Below, in pieces: positions 19,214 to 52,663 of a stretch of 64,000 nt of DNA (the stretch's first letter is position 1; each line of letters opens with the position of its first letter). Location: positions 422,618 to 486,617 of the forward strand of contig NZ_LMHM01000013.1 of assembly GCF_001427785.1 (NCBI RefSeq). Direction: 5' to 3'. Under the pieces are notes generated by a model, which saw only the letters and a list, made by a program, of their open reading frames with translations, was not told where the DNA came from and did no database searches. The translations under genes were made by a program, and so were the position numbers. This DNA comes from Lysobacter sp. Root690. GTDB lineage: Bacteria > Pseudomonadota > Gammaproteobacteria > Xanthomonadales > Xanthomonadaceae.

Positions 19214-20578
19214 ATGAATGAGCCGCTCCGCCCCGGAACCCCGATCACCCCCAGTGCCCTGGCGCTGACGCCGCTGCTGCTGTTCCTGGCGCTGTTTTTC
19301 GGCGCCGGGCTGTATTTCACCGCCAACGGCGACGCGATGGGCTTCTACCAGCTGCACGCGCCGGTGGCGATCCTGCCGGCGCTGGCGCTGGCCGCGTTCA
19401 TCGCTTGGCGCCGCGGAATCAAGCCGCTGGAAACCCTGCTGGGCGGCATGGGCGACCACAACGTCGTGCTGATGTGCCTGATCTTCCTGCTGGCCGGCGG
19501 CTTCGTCGAAGTGTCCAAGGCGATCGGCGCGGTCGACGCGATCGTGTCGCTCGGTGTCGGCAACGTGCATCCGGCGCTGTTGTTGCCGGCCTTGTTCGTG
19601 GTCGCCGGGTTTATTTCGATGTCGCTGGGCACCTCGATGGGCACGATCGCCGCGGTCGCGCCGATCGCGCTGGGCGTATCGGACGCGTCGGGCCTGGATC
19701 GCGCGCTGGTGCTCGGCGCGGTGATCGGCGGCGCGACCTTCGGCGACAACCTGTCGGTGATTTCCGACACCGCGATCGTCGCCAGCCGCACCCAGGGCTG
19801 CACGATGCGGGAGAAATTCCGCGAGAACCTCAAGCTGGCGCTGCCGGCGGCGATCGCCACCCTGGTGTTACTGGGCTTCCTCGGCGAAACCGCGCCGGTG
19901 CAGACGCCCGATCCGGTGTCGCCGTGGCTGATCCTGCCGTACCTCGTCGTGCTCGGGCTGGCGATCGCCGGCGTCGACGTGATCATCGTGTTGAGTATTG
20001 GCCTGGTCATCGCGGGCCTGTTCGGGGTGTTCTTCGCCGAGGATTTCGGCTTCGCCGCCTACACCACGCACATCTGGGACGGCTTCGAGAGCATGGTCGA
20101 GATCACCTTGCTGTCGCTGCTGGTCGGCGGCCTGGGCGCATTGATGAAAGCCGCCGGCGGCCTGGCCTGGGTGGCGCAGACCATCGGCAAGTTCGCGCGA
20201 GGTCATCGCAGCCGCCGCGCGGGCGAGATCAGCATCGCCGCGTTGTCGGCGACCACCGATGTGTTCACCGCCAACAACACCGTCGCGATCCTGATCAGCG
20301 GCGGCCTTGCGCGCGATGTCGCGCAACAGCACGGAGTGCCGCCGGCGCGCGCGGCGAGCGTGCTCGACATCTTCGCCTGCGTGACTCAGGGCGTGCTGCC
20401 GTATGGCGCGCAGATATTGCTGGCGGCGTCGTTGAGCAAGGTTTCGCCGCTGCAGTTGATCGGCAACGTGCATTACAGCTGGCTGCTGGGGGCGGTGACG
20501 ATCGGGGCGATGTTGTGGCCTTCGCGCAAGCGGGCCCTCACCCCAACCCCTCTCCCGCAGGCGGGAGAGGGGCTTTAA
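19214..20578 (+). CDS. NhaC-family Na+/H+ antiporter
   Basis: A 454-residue polytopic inner-membrane protein with about 11 hydrophobic segments. It contains the NhaC-type motifs GTSMGTIAAVAPIALG and GATFGDNLSVISDTAIVASRTQGC, and later SATTDVFTANNTVAI. It probably exchanges cytoplasmic Na+ for H+. The ATG is followed by a short Pro-rich tail before the first helix. The last 14 residues (ALTPTPLPQAGEGL) and the stop are encoded by a dispersed repeat, so the native C-terminus may have been changed by insertion. Substrate could differ; other ArsB/NhaC-like carriers share this fold. Confidence 0.85.
   Translation: MNEPLRPGTPITPSALALTPLLLFLALFFGAGLYFTANGDAMGFYQLHAPVAILPALALAAFIAWRRGIKPLETLLGGMGDHNVVLMCLIFLLAGGFVEVSKAIGAVDAIVSLGVGNVHPALLLPALFVVAGFISMSLGTSMGTIAAVAPIALGVSDASGLDRALVLGAVIGGATFGDNLSVISDTAIVASRTQGCTMREKFRENLKLALPAAIATLVLLGFLGETAPVQTPDPVSPWLILPYLVVLGLAIAGVDVIIVLSIGLVIAGLFGVFFAEDFGFAAYTTHIWDGFESMVEITLLSLLVGGLGALMKAAGGLAWVAQTIGKFARGHRSRRAGEISIAALSATTDVFTANNTVAILISGGLARDVAQQHGVPPARAASVLDIFACVTQGVLPYGAQILLAASLSKVSPLQLIGNVHYSWLLGAVTIGAMLWPSRKRALTPTPLPQAGEGL
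20532..20575. repeat. Dispersed repeat overlapping the nhaC 3' end
   Basis: The unit CCCTCACCCCAACCCCTCTCCCGC with an inverted GCGGGAGAGGGG arm lies inside the antiporter frame and supplies its last codons. It is related to the elements at 18962-19088 and 20643-20709. Confidence 0.7.
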
Positions 20579-40855: not shown

Positions 40856-41118
40856 GATCGTCACCTCTGTTCACGGGAAGGAAGACGACATTCGCGCGAC
40901 GGGCGCCACGCTCAGTCATGCATGACTGGAGCGTTGAATTTAGTTCGATCTAATTCAACTAGGGGATTCCCTAGAAAAATGGCTAAAACGGGGTGTTCCG
41001 GTGATGGGAAGTGGGGTTGGGTCACATCTGGGAATATTCATGCTCGAGCTGAGCATTTGAGCGAGCAGCTCCGTGATCGCGGAACCCTTGGGAAGCGCGT
41101 CTAAGAACTCAAATCTCA

Positions 41119-41445
41119 TTATTGGTGTAGTTCATACTGCGGACCAGACTGTCGTTGCGCTTCTTGGTTCTCGACCTGTTGTTCTTGAGTCCTGTGTTGT
41201 TGGGTGATCTGCTCGATGCGTTCGAGGCTTCGTTCTGTGGGTGTCTGTGCCGCTGTGGCGGCATCGACACCGACGTGATGGTGCGGTCCTTGCGCGCCGT
41301 GGGATGAGGAGAACCCGAAGACCTGCACCGCGCCCTGCAAGTTTGGCCTTCCAATAACCACACCATCGAGTTGCTGGAGCAGGGTGGCCGCCTTGGTCGC
41401 TGCCAACAAGCTCGCCGCGATATTGCGACTGTATTCGCCTGTCCA
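41119..41445 (-). pseudogene. Remnant of a XVIPCD-type T4SS effector C-terminus
   Basis: About 108 codons on the minus strand. The sequence runs EYSRNIAASLLAATKAATLLQQLDGVVIG, then VDAATAAQTPTERSLERI and a Gln-rich tail ending QSGPQYELHQ. This is the pattern of the XVIPCD, the C-terminal secretion domain of effectors sent by the X-type IV secretion system of Xanthomonas and Lysobacter (…TP.E.S..., Gln tail). A TGA at 41446-41448 ends the frame upstream, and no effector domain is found, so the gene is decayed or truncated. Confidence 0.55.
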
Positions 41446-41576
41446 TCACCCGATTTCCGGAGCCTCGGTTCTGGGGCATATATCCGCCCAGCGAGAGCCT
41501 CTGGGCTAGCCTGGGCGTCACCACACGTGTAAGCGCGTTTACACTCGCCTAAGCCAAGGGAAGGGAAGGACAAAAC

Positions 41577-43100
41577 ATGCATCAGTACAAGAGTCAGATT
41601 AGGGACAGCATGATTAACGAGCTGCGCGACAAGGTTACGCGTAAAAGCTATGGCCGCTATCTCGTCAAGATGAAAATAGTTCATGTGCGAAGTTTGAAGA
41701 ATCAAACGATCAACTTCGACTTTCCTGTAACCGCGCTTATTGGGCCGAATGGGGGTGGCAAAACCACAATCTTGGGCGCCGCGGCGACTGCCTACTCTTC
41801 GATCAAGCCCCGGCAATTCTTTTCAAAAAGCGGTGTGTTTGACGAAAGTATGGCTGATTGGCGAATCGAGTACGACCTCATTGATCGGGAGGTTAACAAA
41901 ACGGATGTGATTCGGCGCACCGCAGCTTTTCACAGTAGTAAGTGGTCTCGCAACGCCGTTGACCGCACCACGGTCGTATTGGGCGTATCTCGGACAGTTC
42001 CAGCGAGCGAGCGCAAAGAGCTACAAAAGTGTGCGTCTGGAACCTTTTCAGTCGATGAGGCAGCCATTGGAAAAATCACGGATGCAGTTACGGCGGCGGT
42101 CGAGAAAATTTTGGGAAAGAACATCGCGGCCTACTCCCATATCAGAGTAGATAATACGGGGCGAGTTTCACTTCTCACAGGGGCGACCGATGACGGTACT
42201 AAATATTCCGAATTCCACTTCGGAGCAGGCGAGTCAAGTATCATCCGTATGGTGATGCAAGTTGAAGTGGCTCCGAAAAACAGCCTGATACTAGTGGAGG
42301 AAATAGAGAATGGCTTGCATCCTATTGCGACTGTCCGAGTCGTTGAATACTTAATAGACGCGGCGCACAGAAATAGTCTACAGGCTATATTTACGACGCA
42401 CTCTAATGACGCACTGTTGCCATTGCCACCTGAAGCAATTTGGGCCTCCATAGGTGGAAAGGTCTTTCAAGGTAAGTTAGATATCGCGTCGCTCCGCGCT
42501 ATCACAGGTCGCATTGAGGCTTCACTGGCAATATTTTGTGAAGACGAGTTTGCTGCCGCTTGGATAAGAGCTGTTCTCAGGGCGCAAAATCAACTTGTAA
42601 TCGCGGGTGTAGAAGTCCACCCGATGGCTGGCGATGGAACAGCTGTTTCAATTAACCGTCATCATAATCATGATCCCGCTGTGCGGTTTCCTTCGCTCTG
42701 TATGATAGATGGGGACTCTCGGCAGGCTGAGAATGGCGGTGAGAAGGTGTACCGCCTGCCAGGTCAAGTGCCGGAAGCTCACGTCTTTGACAAGGTTCTC
42801 GAAGCGGATGGCGAGCACGGCCGGCTGATTATGCGTCTACATCAACCCTTCGGAGAGCAGGTTCAGAAAATAGCTGCATTGCGTGCGGTGCGCGCAGCGA
42901 ATCGAGATCCTCATCTTATTTTTCAACAAGTGGCAGAGGCGTTTGGATATATGTCGCTTGATGTCGTTCGCGAGGCTTTTTTTACTACATGGGTTGAGGC
43001 CTATCCCGCAGAGGCACAGGCCATTGTCGCGCCAATTCTTCACGAATTGGCGGGTCGGCTGCCGGCACCTGAAGCGGACCCCGGCGTTGCGGTGGTGTAG
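41577..43100 (+). CDS. OLD-family-like ATPase/TOPRIM nuclease
   Basis: A 507-residue protein with an ABC-type ATPase: Walker A GPNGGGKT at 56-63, signature FGAGESS at 215-221, Walker B LILVEEIENGL at 236-246 and H-loop TTHS at 273-276. A TOPRIM-like half follows: CEDEFAAAW (Glu at 322), AGDGT near 351 and MIDGDSR at 377-382. This layout matches OLD-family nucleases such as phage P2 Old and GajA of Gabija. No UvrD-like gajB follows. GC is visibly lower than the core genome. The ATG has GGAAGGA 7 nt upstream. A phage-defence role is inferred. Confidence 0.75.
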   Translation: MHQYKSQIRDSMINELRDKVTRKSYGRYLVKMKIVHVRSLKNQTINFDFPVTALIGPNGGGKTTILGAAATAYSSIKPRQFFSKSGVFDESMADWRIEYDLIDREVNKTDVIRRTAAFHSSKWSRNAVDRTTVVLGVSRTVPASERKELQKCASGTFSVDEAAIGKITDAVTAAVEKILGKNIAAYSHIRVDNTGRVSLLTGATDDGTKYSEFHFGAGESSIIRMVMQVEVAPKNSLILVEEIENGLHPIATVRVVEYLIDAAHRNSLQAIFTTHSNDALLPLPPEAIWASIGGKVFQGKLDIASLRAITGRIEASLAIFCEDEFAAAWIRAVLRAQNQLVIAGVEVHPMAGDGTAVSINRHHNHDPAVRFPSLCMIDGDSRQAENGGEKVYRLPGQVPEAHVFDKVLEADGEHGRLIMRLHQPFGEQVQKIAALRAVRAANRDPHLIFQQVAEAFGYMSLDVVREAFFTTWVEAYPAEAQAIVAPILHELAGRLPAPEADPGVAVV

Positions 43101-43289
43101 GCGTCTGTAGCTCTCCTGTTAGCCGTTCCGTGAGCGTCCATACCTTCCACACATCAGCCTAAATGTGCTGAACGTGCGTCGATTCGCGTCACGCCGGGAG
43201 CATCGCATGCTTGAAGCATTATCCTTATCGGTGCGGGCTCACCAGCGCTTTCGTGATTTGAGTCGAAAGGCGCACGTCTAGTGACGGAA
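43101..43289. other. Short gene-free gap
   Basis: Lower-GC sequence between the OLD-like gene and the left island repeat. No gene, RNA or clear hairpin was seen. Confidence 0.5.
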
Positions 43290-43690
43290 CAGGGAGGCAG
43301 AGTAGATTTTTTCTAAACAACGAGTGATCCTCGAACACTTGCTTTGTATGGAGGCGTTGATTGGAATATTTTTGCTCTCGATCATCAATATTTCAGGGTC
43401 GAAACCTGAAGTCCTGATAGCAACAACTATCTTCGGACAATTCGAGCGCGCCAGTCGGAATTACGATTGGATCAATGCCCCGCGAACATCATGCTTAGGG
43501 ATGTGTTGGCGGTGACCAGCCGTTGTCGACATCTTGAGTGACGTCGATCTAGTTGGCGCGGTCGATTGATGCTCGCAGTCGAGAAAGCACTCGACATTGT
43601 CCTTCGCGCCGCCCGATCAAACACCCAAAACAAAACAAGCCCCTGAGGTCATCAGGGGCTTGTTTCGTAATCTGGCGGAGAGAGGGGGAT
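43290..43690. repeat. Left direct repeat of the tRNA-Ser(GGA) island
   Basis: About 400 nt homologous to 49570-49962. Positions 43610-43690 (81 nt) are identical to 49882-49962; the rest is diverged but clearly alignable. The last 18 nt (43673-43690) copy the 3' end of the tRNA-Ser gene. Confidence 0.9.
43634..43664 (-). terminator. Duplicate of the tRNA-Ser(GGA) terminator
   Basis: AACAAGCCCCTGA and TCAGGGGCTTGTT form a 13-bp stem. On the minus strand it is followed by TTTGTTTTG. It is identical to 49906-49936 and lies in the left att copy. Confidence 0.8.
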
Positions 43691-44430
43691 CCAGTACCTC
43701 GCCCCCCGGACCCCACGTTTCTCGGCAGCACGCAAACCAGGCTGTGTCCTGTTTTGTGTCCTGGTATTTTAGGGGGCAGGCACCCCAAGTACCAGAGCGT
43801 AAGAAACTAGTCGTCACTTGGCGAGCTAGTCATCTATGCACTGGCGGAAGTCTCGACACGCTAGTGGTCTGTCCTAGGTCTGCCCGCCAACTATCTGGGA
43901 GATGGCCGCTTCTTCAGTGACCTGCTCGCGGTGGGGAAGTTGGGCAAGTACCGTTGAAGGAGTGGGGCGCTGTCCTGCGAGCCTGCTGACCTTAGGGGTG
44001 TTTCCGGCGAAACCATGACCAAGATGAACCTTGAGGTATCGAGGCAGGCACCAAACGTGTCGTAGCTTTGCTGCGGTCTCTTTATACGATCCTTACGAGC
44101 TTCTTGCGTTCCCATCGATTGTATGGCCGAGTTGGCTCGCAACAAGTCGTGCGTGCGCTGCTTTCGCCGGCCGGCGATGCCGTCTAGGTGGTCGCGGTGT
44201 GGCTCATTCTGCCCCTATCGCAGTCGTCCGGCCCCATCCGGAAATAGATCGCCGTGGATGGGGAAAAGCTACTCAAGTGCGTGCGCGAAGGCGGCTCAAG
44301 GAGGTCTTTGAGCGATGGAAAAACCCACTCCTCGAACGACTCCTCAAGGTATCGTTTAAGGCACGCCTTGCTAGCAATGCAAGCACAATAGCCATGCTGG
44401 ACAATAGCATGGAAGAATAGGAAGCTAGGT

Positions 44431-47400
44431 TTACCTAGCGGGCTTCTTTGCCGCAGACATCTTCTTCGCAGTCGCATTTTTTTCCTCTATTGCGCGTCTG
44501 GCTGCAGATTGCTTGACTGCCATCTTCTTCGCTGTTGTCTTCTTAGTGCTCGTTGGGAACTCCTTTTTAATACTCCGTTTCGCAACCGGAGCAACCGTGG
44601 GCGATCCTTTATTAACTTCGGAACTATTCGCAGCCCTCGAAGCGGTGGGCTGCGTTACAAGCGCCCTCTTTTTCGCTGCGGATTTCTTCGGATGAGTTGA
44701 TGACGTTGTCTTCGCACTTGGTTTCGCCAGGGAAGTTGACTCGGTAGTCGCATTCTTGGGTGCAGCCTTCTTGGCCGCAACGCGCTTCGTCTGAGGTTGC
44801 CTAAAATTCGGCCCTTGCCCAGTGGTTGCTGGCGATCGACCAGCAGTCTTGGAAGCTTTCTTAACGAGCTTAGAGGCGCTGCTTTTTTCGTCGAATACTA
44901 CAGGGCCTAGATATAGCCCTCGTACAGTCACGAACGCGTCCGAACCAAGGGTAGCTATCAGCTCTTGCGCGTCGGCATTGAGTCGTTTCATCACGTCCTG
45001 GAAAGCTATCGGTGCTCCGTTTTCGGGGGCTTTCCAAATTTTTTTTCCGCGCCATGAGATCACCAGAGCGCCTACGCGACGATTCTCAGGCGCCATGTAT
45101 TTGGCGACCAATTGATCATGTAGCGCCTTTCTAAGGGCGGTGAAAGACCATTTTTCTCCGATCTTCAACTCGATTGTGGCTTCGAGGCTCCCAGCAGTCG
45201 AGCTTAGGCGGAGGTCAGTCTCTTTCTCTTCCCCGGTCACCGGCTCTTGGGAGACAATGTAAGACTCCCTCGCCCAGTTCTTTAGTCGGGCAGCAATCTC
45301 CCTCCTCAGCAAGAATTCCTTCTTTATCGTGAACCAAAGGTCGCGAGGAGTATCGTCATGGCGCAGGAGATCATCAAGGTCCTCGAGTCTTGCGAGAAGG
45401 AGTTGGGCCATTTGCCGCCGCGACCTCGGAGCGACTTCAAAGTGTTGCTCCAATTGAAGGACTTCGCGCTCAGTCAATATTTCGAAGTCAATTTCCTCCG
45501 CAAGCTTCTCCCGGCCTATCGCAATGATACGGTCGCGATAACCGGCGACATCCGGGTCGCTGGCGAGACTGAGCTTCATTTTCCAAGCCTCCACGCCCCG
45601 CGCGTCAAGCATGGCGTTAGTTAGCATACTGCGAGCGTACTCCGCCTCGTCTCGAAGACCTCGCTCGCGTTCGTCCGTGTATGGCTCATCATCCTGACTT
45701 CGCACATGTCGAATTGCCAGCCTAACAAGGCGGAACAATAACTCCGGTCGCGCACGAATGGCATCAAGGTCCATCGTCGCGTGGTGCCCGAAGAGTATTC
45801 CGATCCAACGCACAAAGTCTGAGTTTTTGAATGGGAGAATGTGCTCAGCAAGTCGTTCAAGCGTATCCACGATTGCTTCCGCGTCGATCCGTCCAAGGAT
45901 GGGCAGCCAAAGTTCCAGGCTTTCTCGGTTCGATGAAGTAGTTGCAGCCGAGATTGCGGCTACGCGCAACATTTCGGCATCATCTGTCGATCCGTGAGCT
46001 AGCAGATACTCGGCTGCAGGGTCCATTATCTTCCGATCTCTCGTCGATAGCGGTGCAGCCAACACGGACTTCACCCACTTTCGGACGCGGGGTAGAAGTA
46101 GCAGCGCGACCGGGTCTCCGCTCCGGCGGACATATTGAAGGAGCATTGAATGGCTTTCAGTGCCAGAGCAAAGCTCGTCTTCCAACTCGCGGCCAATGAT
46201 ACTGTCAACGGCCCGCGGATGGCGGTTTGTGAGTTGCTCGAGCCAGGCCGGGAGTTGATTGAGATCGAGCAACGCGTAGCGACATGCAAGACTGGCCTCA
46301 TCCTCATTAAGTTTGGACGTCCAGTTCGGATCCTCGGCCTCTGCGTAAATTCCGAGAAGGCCCATCTGCCAACGAGTAATATAGGTGTTCTTCTCCGCGT
46401 CAGGTCGTTCAGATCTGATCGAGGGCCTGTCGTCGCGCCAAGTAGCCGCGAAGGCCACTTTGAAGCGGTCGGCCAGTTCCTTATTTAGCATGCGCTCGAC
46501 GAAGCCGCGGTTCCAACCAGCCTGGGAGCGATCTTCAATGTCGTTCTCCATTACGCGCCAGAAGTTCCAGCGTGTGTTGGCTAGCCGTGATGGCGAGAAC
46601 GCATCATCGGTATTGGTAAGTAGCTCACGATGAAACTGTATCCAGCTGGCACGACCTTTCGCCTCCTTGCGGTGAGCTTCTTCTCTCCGTTTGGCGTCGC
46701 GTCTCTCCCACGAGTTCGGCTCGGGAGGCGCTAAGTAGATCTCCTGGAACTTAGATGTGCGGTCGATAAGCTCTAACGTGCCCGAGGTTTGCGAGAGCAG
46801 GTGATCGATCCAAACCTCTGGCTCGGCTTTCTGGTGCGTCCACAAAATTGCGACCTCCAAGGCAAGTTGACGCTCTTCGAGATGCCTTGACTCATCCGAG
46901 ATGGCCGCAAGGATCCATCTCTCATCGCGCTCATGGTTAAGGTGAATTCCGCCGACGCTTCGCAAATCAGACACCCGCCAGCGCGCATCGCGATCGCCTT
47001 TCGGGTTATTAGCGCGCAGGATTGCGTCCTGAGTCCAGAACACCTTCGAACGAACATCCTCTGAGGCGACTTCAAGTTCGGCTCGAAGAAGATGAGCGTC
47101 ATGGTCCGAATGGTGGTCGCCTCTGGCGAGCAGTAGAGCTAGTGCGATAGCGCCAACAGCGTCCTGGTCCACATCTTTGCCGCTTAGACGTTGAAAGCCT
47201 GCGGTTAAGAGTACTGGAACGAGATCCTGACGCGCTGACCGCATGTGGTAGTGGGCTTCATTCCAAGACGCTGTCGCGGCTACGAGCGCGTGTATGCCTC
47301 GTTGTAGATTCGCTAGCTGTCCGGCAGTGAGTAAACTATGCGATATGACATTGGAGATATGAGTGGCCGGGCCGAGATTCGAGCGTTTCTTTGGGACGTG

Positions 47401-49170
47401 ATTTGCCAGCGCGCCGATCAGCTGATCGATCGACATATGGCTTGGAAATAGTTCAATAATTGCTCGCTGACGAAGTCCTGATGGCCACGAAGATCCAGCA
47501 GATGACATGTCATCGAGGAGTGCCAAAAGCCGTCTGTCTTCGATCTGTGAGAGCGCGACAAGCGCAGCGATTCGGCTGCCTACATCTAGGTCGACATCTA
47601 TCGCAACGCTATAGGCGAGGTCAGAGTTCTCGACCATTTTCCCTGCGCTGATGAGACCGAGCAGCGTTTCGCGGACTTCCGGATTCTCGACCCCTTTATC
47701 CCAGTGGCGCGCGATATCGAGTGCTAAGCCCTGATCGGCAAATCGTTGGACTTGGAGGGCTGGTACAGCCTGGCCCCGCCAACCGCCCTTTCCGAACGCC
47801 GCCACGTACCCGGCCAGAGCTGCCCGGCGTAGAGGCAAGTCGAGCGACTCAGGGTCTCCATAATGGAGAAGTAACGCAGGCTCGTGCTTTAGTACTTCTT
47901 GGCGAACGAAATCATTGTTGGCGGCGAGCCAAGCTGCGACCGGGCGCATCGCCGGCCGCACAATGCGGCGGCCCTCGGGCGATGGGGCAAACAGGAGTTC
48001 GATGAGCTTGCGTGTGGGGAGTCCCTTGTCGATCAGATAACTTAATCGCTCCGCAGCGAGGTATTCGATGCACGATCTGTGGTAGAAGCGCACGCGACCG
48101 TAGTTAGCGAATCCGAAGAGTGCGCGTTCGAGCAAGGTATCTAGTTCGTCCGGCGTTCGATTGGTTAGGATTCTTGTAGGATCTAGGGCGCCATCGCCGG
48201 AGGCACGATCAGCATCGTCCCCATGCCAGATATTGAACTTCCGTCCAAGCAAGGCCGCCAGCGCGAGACGCGCGGCGCTCTCGCGGGCAGTGGTGGGATC
48301 GAGTGGTACGAGTTCATTACGTTTCTTGTTGGGCCGCAGTCTGATCTCGATCGCGGTATGAATCTGATCTCGATGGCGACGAATGGCTCCAGTCTCATTC
48401 CAGTCGCCGCAGAGAGCTAAGAAGTCAAGCGGGCGCCTTGCGAAGTCGTGTGCGTTGCGCGCTCCAATTTCGTCAAACAATTTCTCGACGTCATTAACCC
48501 CAGCCTCAGCGGCCATGATGCGCATCTGATCCTCACGGAGCTGCGTCAGCGCGACTAATCTCCACGAGGCCTGTGCGGGAACCTCCTTTGTCTTCCGAAC
48601 ACGCATCGCGATATCTGCGAACGCTACTTCCTGTTCCTCCTCTACCACTGGCTTGGGAGGAACTGGTAGATAGCGACCGATTATCTCGCGATCGAATGGG
48701 ATAGGCCGGGTCGTGATGACGATCGTGCAGCGACCCAGGTGCCCTGAGAGAGAATTGGCAACCGACTTTATCGCCTGCTCAAACGATGCCCTTGTGATCC
48801 TGAACTCATCGATAGAGTCCAGAAAGAAGACTGCACGCTCTGTCTGAGCTGCCTGCCAGCCCGCAAATCGCTTCTTCTCTTCGTTGTCGAATCGATCTTC
48901 GATGGAGTCGGTCACGAGAGTAGAGAGTTCGATGTAAAACGCAGCTTGGCCTTCTTCCCAAAGCCGCCTCCGCGCCCTTTGGCACTCAAAGGTCTTGCCC
49001 ATGCCAGCCTCGGAGATGATGAGCACTCGGTCGGATTCCAGCAGGGCGGACCATTCCAGCACCCTGCCGCTGGGGAACCCTGCCAGGAACTCGGCGCTCT
49101 CCATATCGCTGGCGGCGTCCTTGGGTAGGTCGAAGAAGGTTCGGACAACCTTTGTCTTGGCGTGATCCAT
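44431..49170 (-). CDS. Giant STAND/NACHT ATPase with nuclease-like domain and H1-like tail
   Basis: A 1,579-residue protein from ATG 49170. A short N-terminus leads to a NACHT-type ATPase: Walker A SEAGMGKT (53-60), Walker B VFFLDSIDEF (114-123), sensor VITTRP near 151-156 and the post-NACHT RPLDFLALCGDW and YHRSCIEYLAAERL blocks. About 900 residues of Leu-rich helical sequence follow, plausibly a HEAT/TPR-like sensor. Near 1333-1352, IELKIGEKWS and DQLVAKYM look like the ExK and Gln parts of a PD-(D/E)xK nuclease. Residues after about 1428 are a Lys/Ala/Ser/Thr tail with AAKK repeats like histone H1. A TTG at 49431 could add 87 residues. A defence role is inferred. Confidence 0.8.
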   Translation of the reverse strand: MDHAKTKVVRTFFDLPKDAASDMESAEFLAGFPSGRVLEWSALLESDRVLIISEAGMGKTFECQRARRRLWEEGQAAFYIELSTLVTDSIEDRFDNEEKKRFAGWQAAQTERAVFFLDSIDEFRITRASFEQAIKSVANSLSGHLGRCTIVITTRPIPFDREIIGRYLPVPPKPVVEEEQEVAFADIAMRVRKTKEVPAQASWRLVALTQLREDQMRIMAAEAGVNDVEKLFDEIGARNAHDFARRPLDFLALCGDWNETGAIRRHRDQIHTAIEIRLRPNKKRNELVPLDPTTARESAARLALAALLGRKFNIWHGDDADRASGDGALDPTRILTNRTPDELDTLLERALFGFANYGRVRFYHRSCIEYLAAERLSYLIDKGLPTRKLIELLFAPSPEGRRIVRPAMRPVAAWLAANNDFVRQEVLKHEPALLLHYGDPESLDLPLRRAALAGYVAAFGKGGWRGQAVPALQVQRFADQGLALDIARHWDKGVENPEVRETLLGLISAGKMVENSDLAYSVAIDVDLDVGSRIAALVALSQIEDRRLLALLDDMSSAGSSWPSGLRQRAIIELFPSHMSIDQLIGALANHVPKKRSNLGPATHISNVISHSLLTAGQLANLQRGIHALVAATASWNEAHYHMRSARQDLVPVLLTAGFQRLSGKDVDQDAVGAIALALLLARGDHHSDHDAHLLRAELEVASEDVRSKVFWTQDAILRANNPKGDRDARWRVSDLRSVGGIHLNHERDERWILAAISDESRHLEERQLALEVAILWTHQKAEPEVWIDHLLSQTSGTLELIDRTSKFQEIYLAPPEPNSWERRDAKRREEAHRKEAKGRASWIQFHRELLTNTDDAFSPSRLANTRWNFWRVMENDIEDRSQAGWNRGFVERMLNKELADRFKVAFAATWRDDRPSIRSERPDAEKNTYITRWQMGLLGIYAEAEDPNWTSKLNEDEASLACRYALLDLNQLPAWLEQLTNRHPRAVDSIIGRELEDELCSGTESHSMLLQYVRRSGDPVALLLLPRVRKWVKSVLAAPLSTRDRKIMDPAAEYLLAHGSTDDAEMLRVAAISAATTSSNRESLELWLPILGRIDAEAIVDTLERLAEHILPFKNSDFVRWIGILFGHHATMDLDAIRARPELLFRLVRLAIRHVRSQDDEPYTDERERGLRDEAEYARSMLTNAMLDARGVEAWKMKLSLASDPDVAGYRDRIIAIGREKLAEEIDFEILTEREVLQLEQHFEVAPRSRRQMAQLLLARLEDLDDLLRHDDTPRDLWFTIKKEFLLRREIAARLKNWARESYIVSQEPVTGEEKETDLRLSSTAGSLEATIELKIGEKWSFTALRKALHDQLVAKYMAPENRRVGALVISWRGKKIWKAPENGAPIAFQDVMKRLNADAQELIATLGSDAFVTVRGLYLGPVVFDEKSSASKLVKKASKTAGRSPATTGQGPNFRQPQTKRVAAKKAAPKNATTESTSLAKPSAKTTSSTHPKKSAAKKRALVTQPTASRAANSSEVNKGSPTVAPVAKRSIKKEFPTSTKKTTAKKMAVKQSAARRAIEEKNATAKKMSAAKKPAR

Positions 49171-49569
49171 CGCTGCGTCTCTTCCTTGAAGGTCTATTAT
49201 CATTGGGCAGTGGTTGGTAGCCCAAGCATACGAGGGGCGAAGAGTGTGAGGCCGGCTCCGCAGTTCAGAAGAGGTTTGCCACGCATCGGCTCGTGCCGTC
49301 AGTTTGCTCAACTGCGCCGGATTCTGTACGCCAGAGGGCTCAAATGAGGTCATAGCGCTGAGCGGACCAGGGTTATCTAGCCATGATTCGCCATCATTTA
49401 CGAGGAGATGCTGAACTGATTGCTTTGCCAAGCACGGAAGGTATCGTTACATTGCTGCCCGCGCTGCAGAGTCGATTGGTGTACGCCTTTCGGATCAATG
49501 AGATAGTCGAAGGGTGTCGATTCCCACCATCCGCTCCACCTACCTGAATCAGCTCCATTTGTCCGAAAA

Positions 49570-49962
49570 CAGGGTCAGAGTAAGGTTTTCTAGAAACGAG
49601 TGATGCGCCAACGCTTGTTTGTATGGAAGCATTAGCCGGAAAGATCTTCGCTACCGACTGTCAATGTTTTAGGGTCGCAACCTGGAGGCCTGATAGCGAC
49701 TGCCATCTTTGGACAATTCAAGGGCGCAAGCCGGACTACGGTGGGTCCATGCCGCGAATACTATGCTTAGTGATGCAGTTCGCGATGACCTGCCGTGTCG
49801 ACATCTTGAGTGGCGTCGATCTATTGGGCGCGGTCGATTGAAGGCCGCAGCCGAGAATGCACTCGGCACTGACCTTCGTATCGCCCGATCAAACACCCAA
49901 AACAAAACAAGCCCCTGAGGTCATCAGGGGCTTGTTTCGTAATCTGGCGGAGAGAGGGGGAT
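49570..49962. repeat. Right direct repeat of the tRNA-Ser(GGA) island
   Basis: The partner of 43290-43690. It contains the tRNA terminator and runs into the functional tRNA 3' end. The 49171-49569 stretch before it holds the NACHT gene leader and no other gene. Confidence 0.9.
49906..49936 (-). terminator. Terminator of tRNA-Ser(GGA)
   Basis: A perfect 13-bp stem with a 5-nt loop, 9 nt past the tRNA 3' end, followed on the minus strand by TTTGTTTTG. Confidence 0.88.
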
Positions 49963-50037
49963 TCGAACCCCCGAAGCGCGGTTTAGACGCTTACACACTT
50001 TCCAGGCGTGCTCCTTCAACCACTCGGACACCTCTCC
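49945..50037 (-). tRNA. tRNA-Ser(GGA)
   Basis: A 93-nt class II tRNA including CCA. On the minus strand it begins GGAGAGGTGTCCGAG, has the anticodon loop CTGGAAA (anticodon GGA, reads UCC/UCU), a long variable arm and GGTTCGAATCC. It is the attachment site of the adjacent island. The 50038-50344 gap to dnaX shows no gene. Confidence 0.96.
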
Positions 50038-50344: not shown

Positions 50345-52663
50345 ATGTCCTATCTCGTCCTCGCCCGCAAATGGCGCCCCAAGCGTTTCGCCGAACTGGT
50401 CGGGCAGGAGCACGTGGTACGCGCGCTGACCAATGCGCTCGGCACCGGCCGCGTGCACCACGCCTTCCTGTTCACCGGTACCCGCGGCGTCGGCAAGACC
50501 ACGATCGCGCGCATCTTCGCCAAGTCGCTGAACTGCGAGCACGGCACCTCGGCCGATCCGTGCGGGCAGTGCAGCGCCTGCCTGGACATCGACGCCGGCC
50601 GCTACATCGACCTGCTCGAGATCGACGCCGCCAGCAACACCGGTGTCGACGACGTGCGCGAGGTGATCGACAACGCCCAGTACATGCCCAGCCGCGGACG
50701 GGTCAAGGTCTATCTGATCGACGAAGTCCACATGCTGTCGAAGTCGGCGTTCAACGCGCTGCTCAAGACGCTGGAGGAGCCGCCGGGGCACGTCAAATTC
50801 CTGCTCGCCACCACCGACCCGCAGAAGCTGCCGGTGACGGTGCTGTCGCGCTGCCTGCAGTTCAACCTCAAGCGCCTGGACGAGCAGCAGATCAGCGGAC
50901 AGATGACCCGCATCCTCGCCGCCGAGGGCATCGGCGTGGACGAATCGGCGATCCGCCAGCTGGCCAAGGCCGCCGACGGCAGTCTGCGCGACGGGTTGTC
51001 GCTGCTCGATCAGGCGATCGCGTACGCCGGCGCGGGCGGCGATGCGCCGCTCGAGGGCGCCGCGGTCGCGGCGATGCTGGGTTCGGTCGACCGCACCCGG
51101 GTCGGCGCGGTGCTGTCGGCGCTGGCCGACGGCGAGGGCCAGCGTCTGCTCGACGAGGTCGCGACCCTGGCCGAATTCTCGCCGGACTGGGGCAGCGTGC
51201 TCGAAGCGCTCGGCGACGCCTTGCACCGGATCCAGGTGCGGCAGCTGGTGCCCGAGGCCTTGGTCGAGGCCGATGGGGTCGATGTCGATCATCTGGCCGC
51301 GCAGCTGCGGCCGGAACTGGTGCAACTGTGGTACCAGATGAGCGTCAACGGCCGCCGCGATCTGCCGCTGGCGCCGAGCCCGCGCGCGGGCTTCGAAATG
51401 AGCGTGTTGCGCATGCTCGCGTTCCGGCCGAGCGCGGCGGGCGAACCGTCCTCGCCCGGCCCCGGCCCGTCCTCGGGCGGTCGCAGCGAACCGGTGCGTT
51501 CGGCCAACGCCGCCGCGCAGGCCGCGGCCGCTATTCGCGAGATGGGGACGCCGGGCCGCGGTGCCGCGCCGACTCAGAATGCGCCGCTCGACAGCGCGCC
51601 GAAATCGGCCGCGCCGCCGCAGAATCCGCTGCGCGAGGCCGCACCGCCGTCGCGCGAGGCGATGCCGTCGCGTGAGTCGGCGCCGCGCGCCGCCGCGCAG
51701 GAACAGACCGACGATCGGCCGCCGTGGGCGCTGCCCGAGCCGGCGCCTGCGCGCGTCGCGCCGCCGGTGTCGGTCGAACCTGCGATGCCGACGCCGTCGC
51801 GCAGTGAGCCTGACGCGCCGCGCACTGCGCCGGTGTCCACGGCCAGCGAGCCGGCGCCGTCAATGCGGGTGAGCGAGTCCAGGCCCGCCGACGCATTCCT
51901 CGCGGTCCGCGACGAACCGCTGTGGCCGGAAGACGAACCCCTGCACGACAAGCCACCGGCGCGGGTCGCCGCGGCAGCGGTCGAGGCCAGGCCTGAGCCC
52001 ACGGTCGAAAAGAACGTCGCGCCGGCCCCGATCGAAACCCGCGCCGAGCCGACGCGCGAACCGGCTCATGACGCGGCGCCTACGCAAACGGCACCGTCGG
52101 CGATGCACGGCGAACCGCAGCGCAGCAACGCGGCGCCGGAAGCCATCCGCAGCGAACCGCCGCGCGACGACATATTCGCCGCGCCGTCCGCGCCCCCGGC
52201 CGCGGCGGCACCCATCTCCGAGCCGATCACCATGCCCGCGCGCACCGCCGCGACGGGTTCGTCGGCAGCGGGCATCGCCGACGACGACGCGTGGCACGCC
52301 ATCGTCGACGCCAGCGGCCTGCGCGGCCCGGCCCGGATCCTGGCCGAGCACGCCGGTTTCATCGGTTACGCCGACGGCGTGCTGAATCTGTCGCTGAGCC
52401 CCGACGACGACCATCTGCGCGCGCCGGCCCTGATCCAGCGGGTCGCCGATGCGCTGGCCACGCGCCTGGGCTCGGCGCCGCAGATCCGCTTCGAGACCGT
52501 CAAGTCGGGCGAGTCGCTGCACGCGCGCAACCAGCGCGCGCGCGATCAGCGCCAGGCGGCGGCCGAGGACATGTTCATGAACGATCCGGACGTGCGCCGG
52601 CTGATCGAGGATCACGGCGCCAAGGTCGTGGCCGACTCGATCCGGCCGTTCGACGACGCCTGA
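50345..52663 (+). CDS. dnaX: DNA polymerase III tau/gamma subunit
   Basis: A 772-residue clamp-loader ATPase. Walker A is TGTRGVGKTT, the zinc module is CEH...CGQCSAC, and Walker B is YLIDEVHMLS, followed by LLKTLEEPP and the SRC sensor. Domain III follows, then about 300 residues of Pro/Ala/Glu linker and a C-terminal tau domain. No A run longer than four was seen, so no E. coli-type AAAAAAG slippery site for gamma. ATG 50345 has AAGGA just upstream. It heads dnaX-ybaB-recR. Confidence 0.94.
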   Translation: MSYLVLARKWRPKRFAELVGQEHVVRALTNALGTGRVHHAFLFTGTRGVGKTTIARIFAKSLNCEHGTSADPCGQCSACLDIDAGRYIDLLEIDAASNTGVDDVREVIDNAQYMPSRGRVKVYLIDEVHMLSKSAFNALLKTLEEPPGHVKFLLATTDPQKLPVTVLSRCLQFNLKRLDEQQISGQMTRILAAEGIGVDESAIRQLAKAADGSLRDGLSLLDQAIAYAGAGGDAPLEGAAVAAMLGSVDRTRVGAVLSALADGEGQRLLDEVATLAEFSPDWGSVLEALGDALHRIQVRQLVPEALVEADGVDVDHLAAQLRPELVQLWYQMSVNGRRDLPLAPSPRAGFEMSVLRMLAFRPSAAGEPSSPGPGPSSGGRSEPVRSANAAAQAAAAIREMGTPGRGAAPTQNAPLDSAPKSAAPPQNPLREAAPPSREAMPSRESAPRAAAQEQTDDRPPWALPEPAPARVAPPVSVEPAMPTPSRSEPDAPRTAPVSTASEPAPSMRVSESRPADAFLAVRDEPLWPEDEPLHDKPPARVAAAAVEARPEPTVEKNVAPAPIETRAEPTREPAHDAAPTQTAPSAMHGEPQRSNAAPEAIRSEPPRDDIFAAPSAPPAAAAPISEPITMPARTAATGSSAAGIADDDAWHAIVDASGLRGPARILAEHAGFIGYADGVLNLSLSPDDDHLRAPALIQRVADALATRLGSAPQIRFETVKSGESLHARNQRARDQRQAAAEDMFMNDPDVRRLIEDHGAKVVADSIRPFDDA

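Follow-up and report, generated by a model that had tools for sequence, protein, structure and literature searches.

Results

The window, a 64,000-nt stretch of DNA from Lysobacter sp. Root690, contains an intact tRNA-Ser(GGA) gene on the minus strand (49945-50037, ARAGORN) and, to its right, the conserved flank formed by dnaX (50345-52663, plus strand; identified from sequence), which is kept in all relatives. The tRNA is the only structured RNA above threshold in the region. A sequence of 81 nt that takes in the tRNA 3' end is present in two identical copies, at 43610-43690 and 49882-49962, with a start-to-start offset of 6,272 nt. Within the left copy, TGGCGGAGAGAGGGGGAT at 43673-43690 (minus strand) exactly matches the last 18 nt of tRNA-Ser(GGA) at 49945-49962, for which the chance expectation is 0 matches, and the copy diverges from the tRNA after these 18 nt, at 43690/43691. 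The two tRNA ends are the proximal (49945-49962) and distal (43673-43690, 17-18 nt) att cores of an inner element. Outside the 81-nt repeat, homology reaches to about 43288 and 49568 at 78% identity. The tRNA-side, or proximal, arm of the inner element with the tRNA terminator occupies 49568-49944, and its counterpart at 43288-43672, 82% identical when the terminator is included, comprises the proximal arm and displaced terminator of an outer, earlier insert. A sequence-only reading of this DNA had drawn attention to the exact repeat, its spacing and the weaker outward homology of about 320 nt, all of which are confirmed by sequence comparison.

The sole convincing gene between the 81-nt copies lies at 44431-49170 on the minus strand and encodes 1,579 amino acids from an ATG start preceded by a Shine-Dalgarno sequence, AAGGAAGAG. 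The product is a NACHT-type STAND ATPase that matches the NCBIfam equivalog model NF058534 (HyoA, NACHT antiphage protein), scoring 1324 bits where the cut-off is 1200; the match spans positions 3-1427 of 1430. No match to the protein was obtained in Pfam or PADLOC, and single-protein patterns returned no HyoA gene from GTDB contigs. Plasmid-borne HyoA relatives show 23-40% identity over their length. Across eight aligned sequences the Walker A residues G58, K59 and T60 (GKT) are invariant, as are L117, D118, D121 and E122 in the Walker B region (LDS.DE) and the catalytic-type C-terminal set E1309, D1319, E1334, K1336 and Q1353. An E...D...ExK...Q arrangement of this kind is typical of PD-(D/E)xK nucleases. 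From these residues and a low-confidence structural model we infer that the C-terminal region of HyoA may be a PD-(D/E)xK-type nuclease. The model (pLDDT 55) has the helix-strand order expected for an alpha-beta-beta-beta-alpha-beta fold and yielded no significant structural match; it is too poor for the fold to serve as evidence. No solved structures related to HyoA were found.

The GC content falls to about 0.55 at 41-50 kb, from 0.66-0.70 on either side. The low-GC stretch begins near 41,000 and takes in a second insert with HEC-04, and the foreign stretch is therefore larger than the 6.3-kb segment. Neither the ORF list nor a Pfam scan revealed an integrase or relaxase gene between the repeats, so that the segment is not classed as an IME, and a six-frame Pfam scan and tblastn of the segment and its arms picked up neither an integrase nor a remnant of one beyond the tRNA overlap. 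At the position of the integrase gene in relatives, the proximal arm has none. The earlier description of the segment as a single NACHT gene in lower-GC sequence with no integrase is thus borne out.

Reading leftwards from the displaced tRNA fragment, the order is a terminator and arm like those at the real tRNA, a gene for the candidate defence ATPase HEC-04, which is the cargo of the outer insert (AAA_21, OLD-like; 41577-43100, plus strand; PADLOC HEC-04, E 3.6e-210), and a C-terminal fragment of an XVIPCD T4SS antibacterial effector (41109-41480, minus strand; Pfam PF20410, E 1.5e-5). This fragment forms the left border of the variable region and lacks the effector's N-terminal part. The arms of the two inserts differ by 22% while their terminal 81 nt agree, which argues that the arms came from two related but distinct sources and not from a recent local duplication. 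The tRNA-side ends show homology together with marked divergence, which makes it likely that two related elements inserted in succession, as had been proposed from the sequence. The outer element's own far att site did not come to light: no tRNA fragment or arm was found for it in 36.5-43.6 kb, and the outer insert is not assigned to the island family described below.

Integrase-bearing islands at the same tRNA were found in other genera. A DUF6538/Phage_integrase gene adjoins tRNA-Ser(GGA) in genomes G035 and G320, and the two integrases are 51% identical. At E <= 1e-20 the integrase family is present in 50 of 297 genomes of the host's taxonomic family, one of which is the window genome, and in no other same-genus genome searched. 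The nearest such integrase in the window genome is only 33% identical (E 4.5e-21) and is next to a tRNA-Gly on a different contig. In each of the 30 fetched loci the integrase adjoins a tRNA-Ser (17 GGA, 11 TGA and 2 GCT). Since related DUF6538 integrases lie beside tRNA-Ser(TGA) (loci L134, L139-L145, L147, L148 and L150), the family has subgroups that differ in the tRNA-Ser they target.

Of 12 integrase islands, 10 contain the tRNA 3' end (TGGCGGAGAGAGGGGGA, 17 nt; one mismatch in G128) a second time within 40 kb, and in nine of these ten the tRNA fragment is followed by a conserved arm of about 85 nt, ACGCAAACCAGG..TGTGTCCTG. In the tenth, G128, the tRNA-end copy bounds a 188-bp remnant, and the arm match of that genome is located about 20 kb from the tRNA. 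This remnant (19568-19756 of locus L160) is a gene-free unit between two tRNA-Ser fragments and represents a minimal island remnant. A far-end profile built from nine integrase-bearing islands, with the window left out, matched the window at 43673-43775 with E 8.3e-15 and 54.6 bits, covering model positions 1-104, and pairwise comparison of the window arm with the island arms gave z values of 12-25 for seven of ten islands. The matched region covers the distal att core and a conserved distal att arm, CACGCAAACCAGG..TGTGTCCTGTTTTGTGTCC (43691-43775, plus strand), probably the integrase arm-binding region. The left copy thus shares both its tRNA end base and its arm with the far ends of integrase-bearing islands in other genera, in agreement with the earlier suggestions that its 18 nt of tRNA mark an attachment core and that the repeats are an att pair. 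No other single result argues as strongly as this profile match for equating the segment's left end with the far att end of the DUF6538 island family.

The far end was found in 35 of 294 genomes of the host's family. At tRNA-Ser(GGA) these far-end islands include some in which the integrase is truncated or missing: a 4.1-kb island with the integrase cut to its first ~120 amino acids (G172), a 2.1-kb island with a short N-terminal integrase remnant (G179), a 2.9-kb island with no integrase (G270) and a 6.3-kb island with integrase fragments (G307). The segment in the window can be grouped with these islands, although it retains not even a remnant of the integrase.

The island of G320 carries the same cargo. 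Next to tRNA-Ser(GGA) come, in turn, the integrase, an NYN-domain gene, a MobA/MobL relaxase gene and HyoA, which is oriented as in the window. These are followed by genes recognised from sequence as resembling Wadjet components, and the match to the far att end is 47 kb away from the tRNA. The window and G320 HyoA proteins are 54% identical and are sisters in the tree with support of 100/100, so that the nearest kin found for the segment's cargo resides in an island with integrase and relaxase at the same tRNA.

Within the genus, between zero and a few hundred bases separate the conserved left flank from the tRNA in G003, G008, G010-G013 and G015. The sister genome G001 tracks the window to about 41,080 and resumes at the tRNA, with an Rhs gene between. 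Rhs cargo is also found at the tRNA in G004 and G017 and prophage-like genes in G018 (all three read from sequence), and BREX genes in G016. The G016 set (locus L036, 4412-19991) comprises BrxC, PglX, BrxHI and PglZ, together with one DUF3987 gene and one gene of GmrSD type. In three same-genus genomes with Rhs-repeat genes on the tRNA-Ser(GGA) flank (L035, L037 and L038), orphan small genes lie behind them. A genome search with NF058534 found no HyoA at tRNA-Ser(GGA) in the same-genus genomes searched; family members occur at other places in three of them (G002, G007 and G018). Relatives that always carry the NACHT gene here with no repeat, named by the sequence-only reading as the pattern that would point to a local duplication, were therefore not encountered. 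As for the empty sites that it named as support for insertion, relatives have the tRNA either empty or with other cargo, but a strain with the flank and lacking exactly this segment did not turn up. The suspected hotspot for defence cargo is supported at tRNA-Ser(GGA)/dnaX by the neighbouring insert with HEC-04 and by BREX, HerA and Wadjet-like genes elsewhere, in addition to HyoA.

Only three places share the ~320-nt proximal arm, all of them lacking an integrase: the inner and outer inserts of the window and the tRNA-Ser(GGA) locus of the sister species G001. Among 395 genomes of the host's family, convincing copies were confined to the window genome and G001; none was found in plasmids or viral contigs, and no integrase-bearing island was found with a tRNA-side arm that resembles it. 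A lone pattern hit in a Mesorhizobium record is probably due to chance. The arm was rejected as coding sequence, as no frame is conserved across the three copies.

Discussion

Our results make it highly probable that 43673-49962 is a site-specific island at the 3' end of tRNA-Ser(GGA) that belongs to the DUF6538-integrase family and has kept both ends, lost its integrase and any relaxase and retained a single cargo gene, HyoA: a CIME-like accreted remnant. The far-end profile match at the left end places the segment as such a member of the island family, minus its integrase. As no integrase remnant persists in the segment, the loss of the gene is inferred rather than seen. An integrase-bearing HyoA island like that of G320 may have lost int and mob by deletion, and the shortened element would then have entered the tRNA beside the older HEC-04 insert, or the shortening may have come after insertion. 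Such a course has been described for integrative elements as CIME formation and accretion, in which an element integrates, decays while its att sites survive and is joined by another on the tRNA side (PMC5704250); similar tandem islands occur at ssrA (PMC3146451). On this route the incoming side rebuilds the tRNA, and the older tRNA end and terminator move outward, as the left copy shows.

The absence of an integrase could alternatively mean that the segment has not recently borne one, and that it belongs to a set of small integrase-less cassettes which share their tRNA-side arm and are mobilised in trans by the integrases of other tRNA-Ser islands. The three homologous arms adjoin different neighbours (HEC-04, HyoA and Rhs) with no integrase at any, and at 68-78% identity they are more diverged than the backbone at 89-91%, so that they are not a recent local copy. 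Taken further, the arm lineage of outer insert, inner insert and G001 might consist of integrase-less single-gene defence cassettes that borrow the integrases of other tRNA-Ser islands, and if so would represent a MITE-like route for spreading immune genes; we give this lineage a slim chance. For the segment itself a cassette origin is unlikely, because a recognised far end exists at only one of the three, no close DUF6538 integrase occurs in the window genome or genus, and integrase loss by deletion is directly seen in relatives.

Local duplication or homologous recombination would have copied the tRNA end and flank, with the gene gained between the copies independently of any site-specific recombinase. 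The repeat reaches past the tRNA, and homology for recombination is therefore present. However, the left copy stops at the recombinase crossover base and runs directly into the conserved far-end arm, and a 22% difference over the outer 320 nt beside an identical last 81 nt is unlike a recent duplication, which leaves this explanation very improbable. The repeats at both ends are also possible joining points at which an assembly could have fused two unrelated stretches at the tRNA. Such an artefact is scarcely credible given a repeat of just 81 nt, the position of the segment inside a contig of 999,554 bases from a genome rated 100% complete, and the recurrence of the same architecture in other genomes.

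The segment shares with the DUF6538-integrase tRNA-Ser islands of G320 and G035 the target tRNA, the crossover base, the far-end arm and defence cargo (HyoA in G320), and differs in having no integrase or relaxase and in an unrelated tRNA-side arm. Like CIMEs (cis-mobilizable elements) and accreted islands (PMC5704250) it has both att ends, no integration or transfer genes and a tandem arrangement at a tRNA 3' end, whereas it carries a single cargo gene, its neighbouring insert has one recognised end, and it is a putative mobilisable element. The ssrA islands of Dehalococcoides (PMC3146451) are likewise tandem, with repeats of the RNA-gene 3' end and some members without integration genes, but theirs are serine recombinases and their cargo serves vinyl chloride respiration. 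The tRNA defence hotspots of E. coli (PMC10121019) also hold variable defence cargo at tRNA integration sites; they belong to another host family, and those of their islands whose mobility is unclear usually retain an integrase or recombinase.

The gene, the island type and the architecture are each of a known kind, and the segment is a clear and mostly ordinary case of defence genes piling up at tRNA hotspots. What is new is that the DUF6538 integrase family, its att ends and defence cargo are tied together at tRNA-Ser(GGA), and that the segment can be placed in this picture. A previously unexplained repeat becomes a defined att pair for which the responsible integrase family can be named, and tRNA-Ser(GGA)/dnaX emerges as a hotspot at which defence cargo has been integrated repeatedly in Xanthomonadaceae. 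The segment also suggests that an anti-phage gene can persist as a one-gene island once the mobility genes are gone. With the att ends and a relative's integrase in hand, mobilisation in trans is directly testable.

The cargo is predicted to act in phage defence in its Lysobacter host. HyoA would most likely function as an NLR-like sensor, in which the NACHT ATPase oligomerises after sensing phage and the C-terminal PD-(D/E)xK-type nuclease then cuts nucleic acid. The window copy resembles the HyoA antiphage protein of NF058534 in its whole-length match above the cut-off, its Walker A and B motifs and its C-terminal ExK region, and differs in an extra C-terminal tail. This Lys/Ala-rich, histone-H1-like tail of ~145 amino acids (44431-44870, minus strand) is missing from the aligned relatives, and G320 HyoA has a short basic end in its place. 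A further NACHT-core relative, on an IMG/VR viral contig (L085, 6004-9930), has no nuclease-like end and instead terminates in a probable membrane helix, which points to an effector swap.
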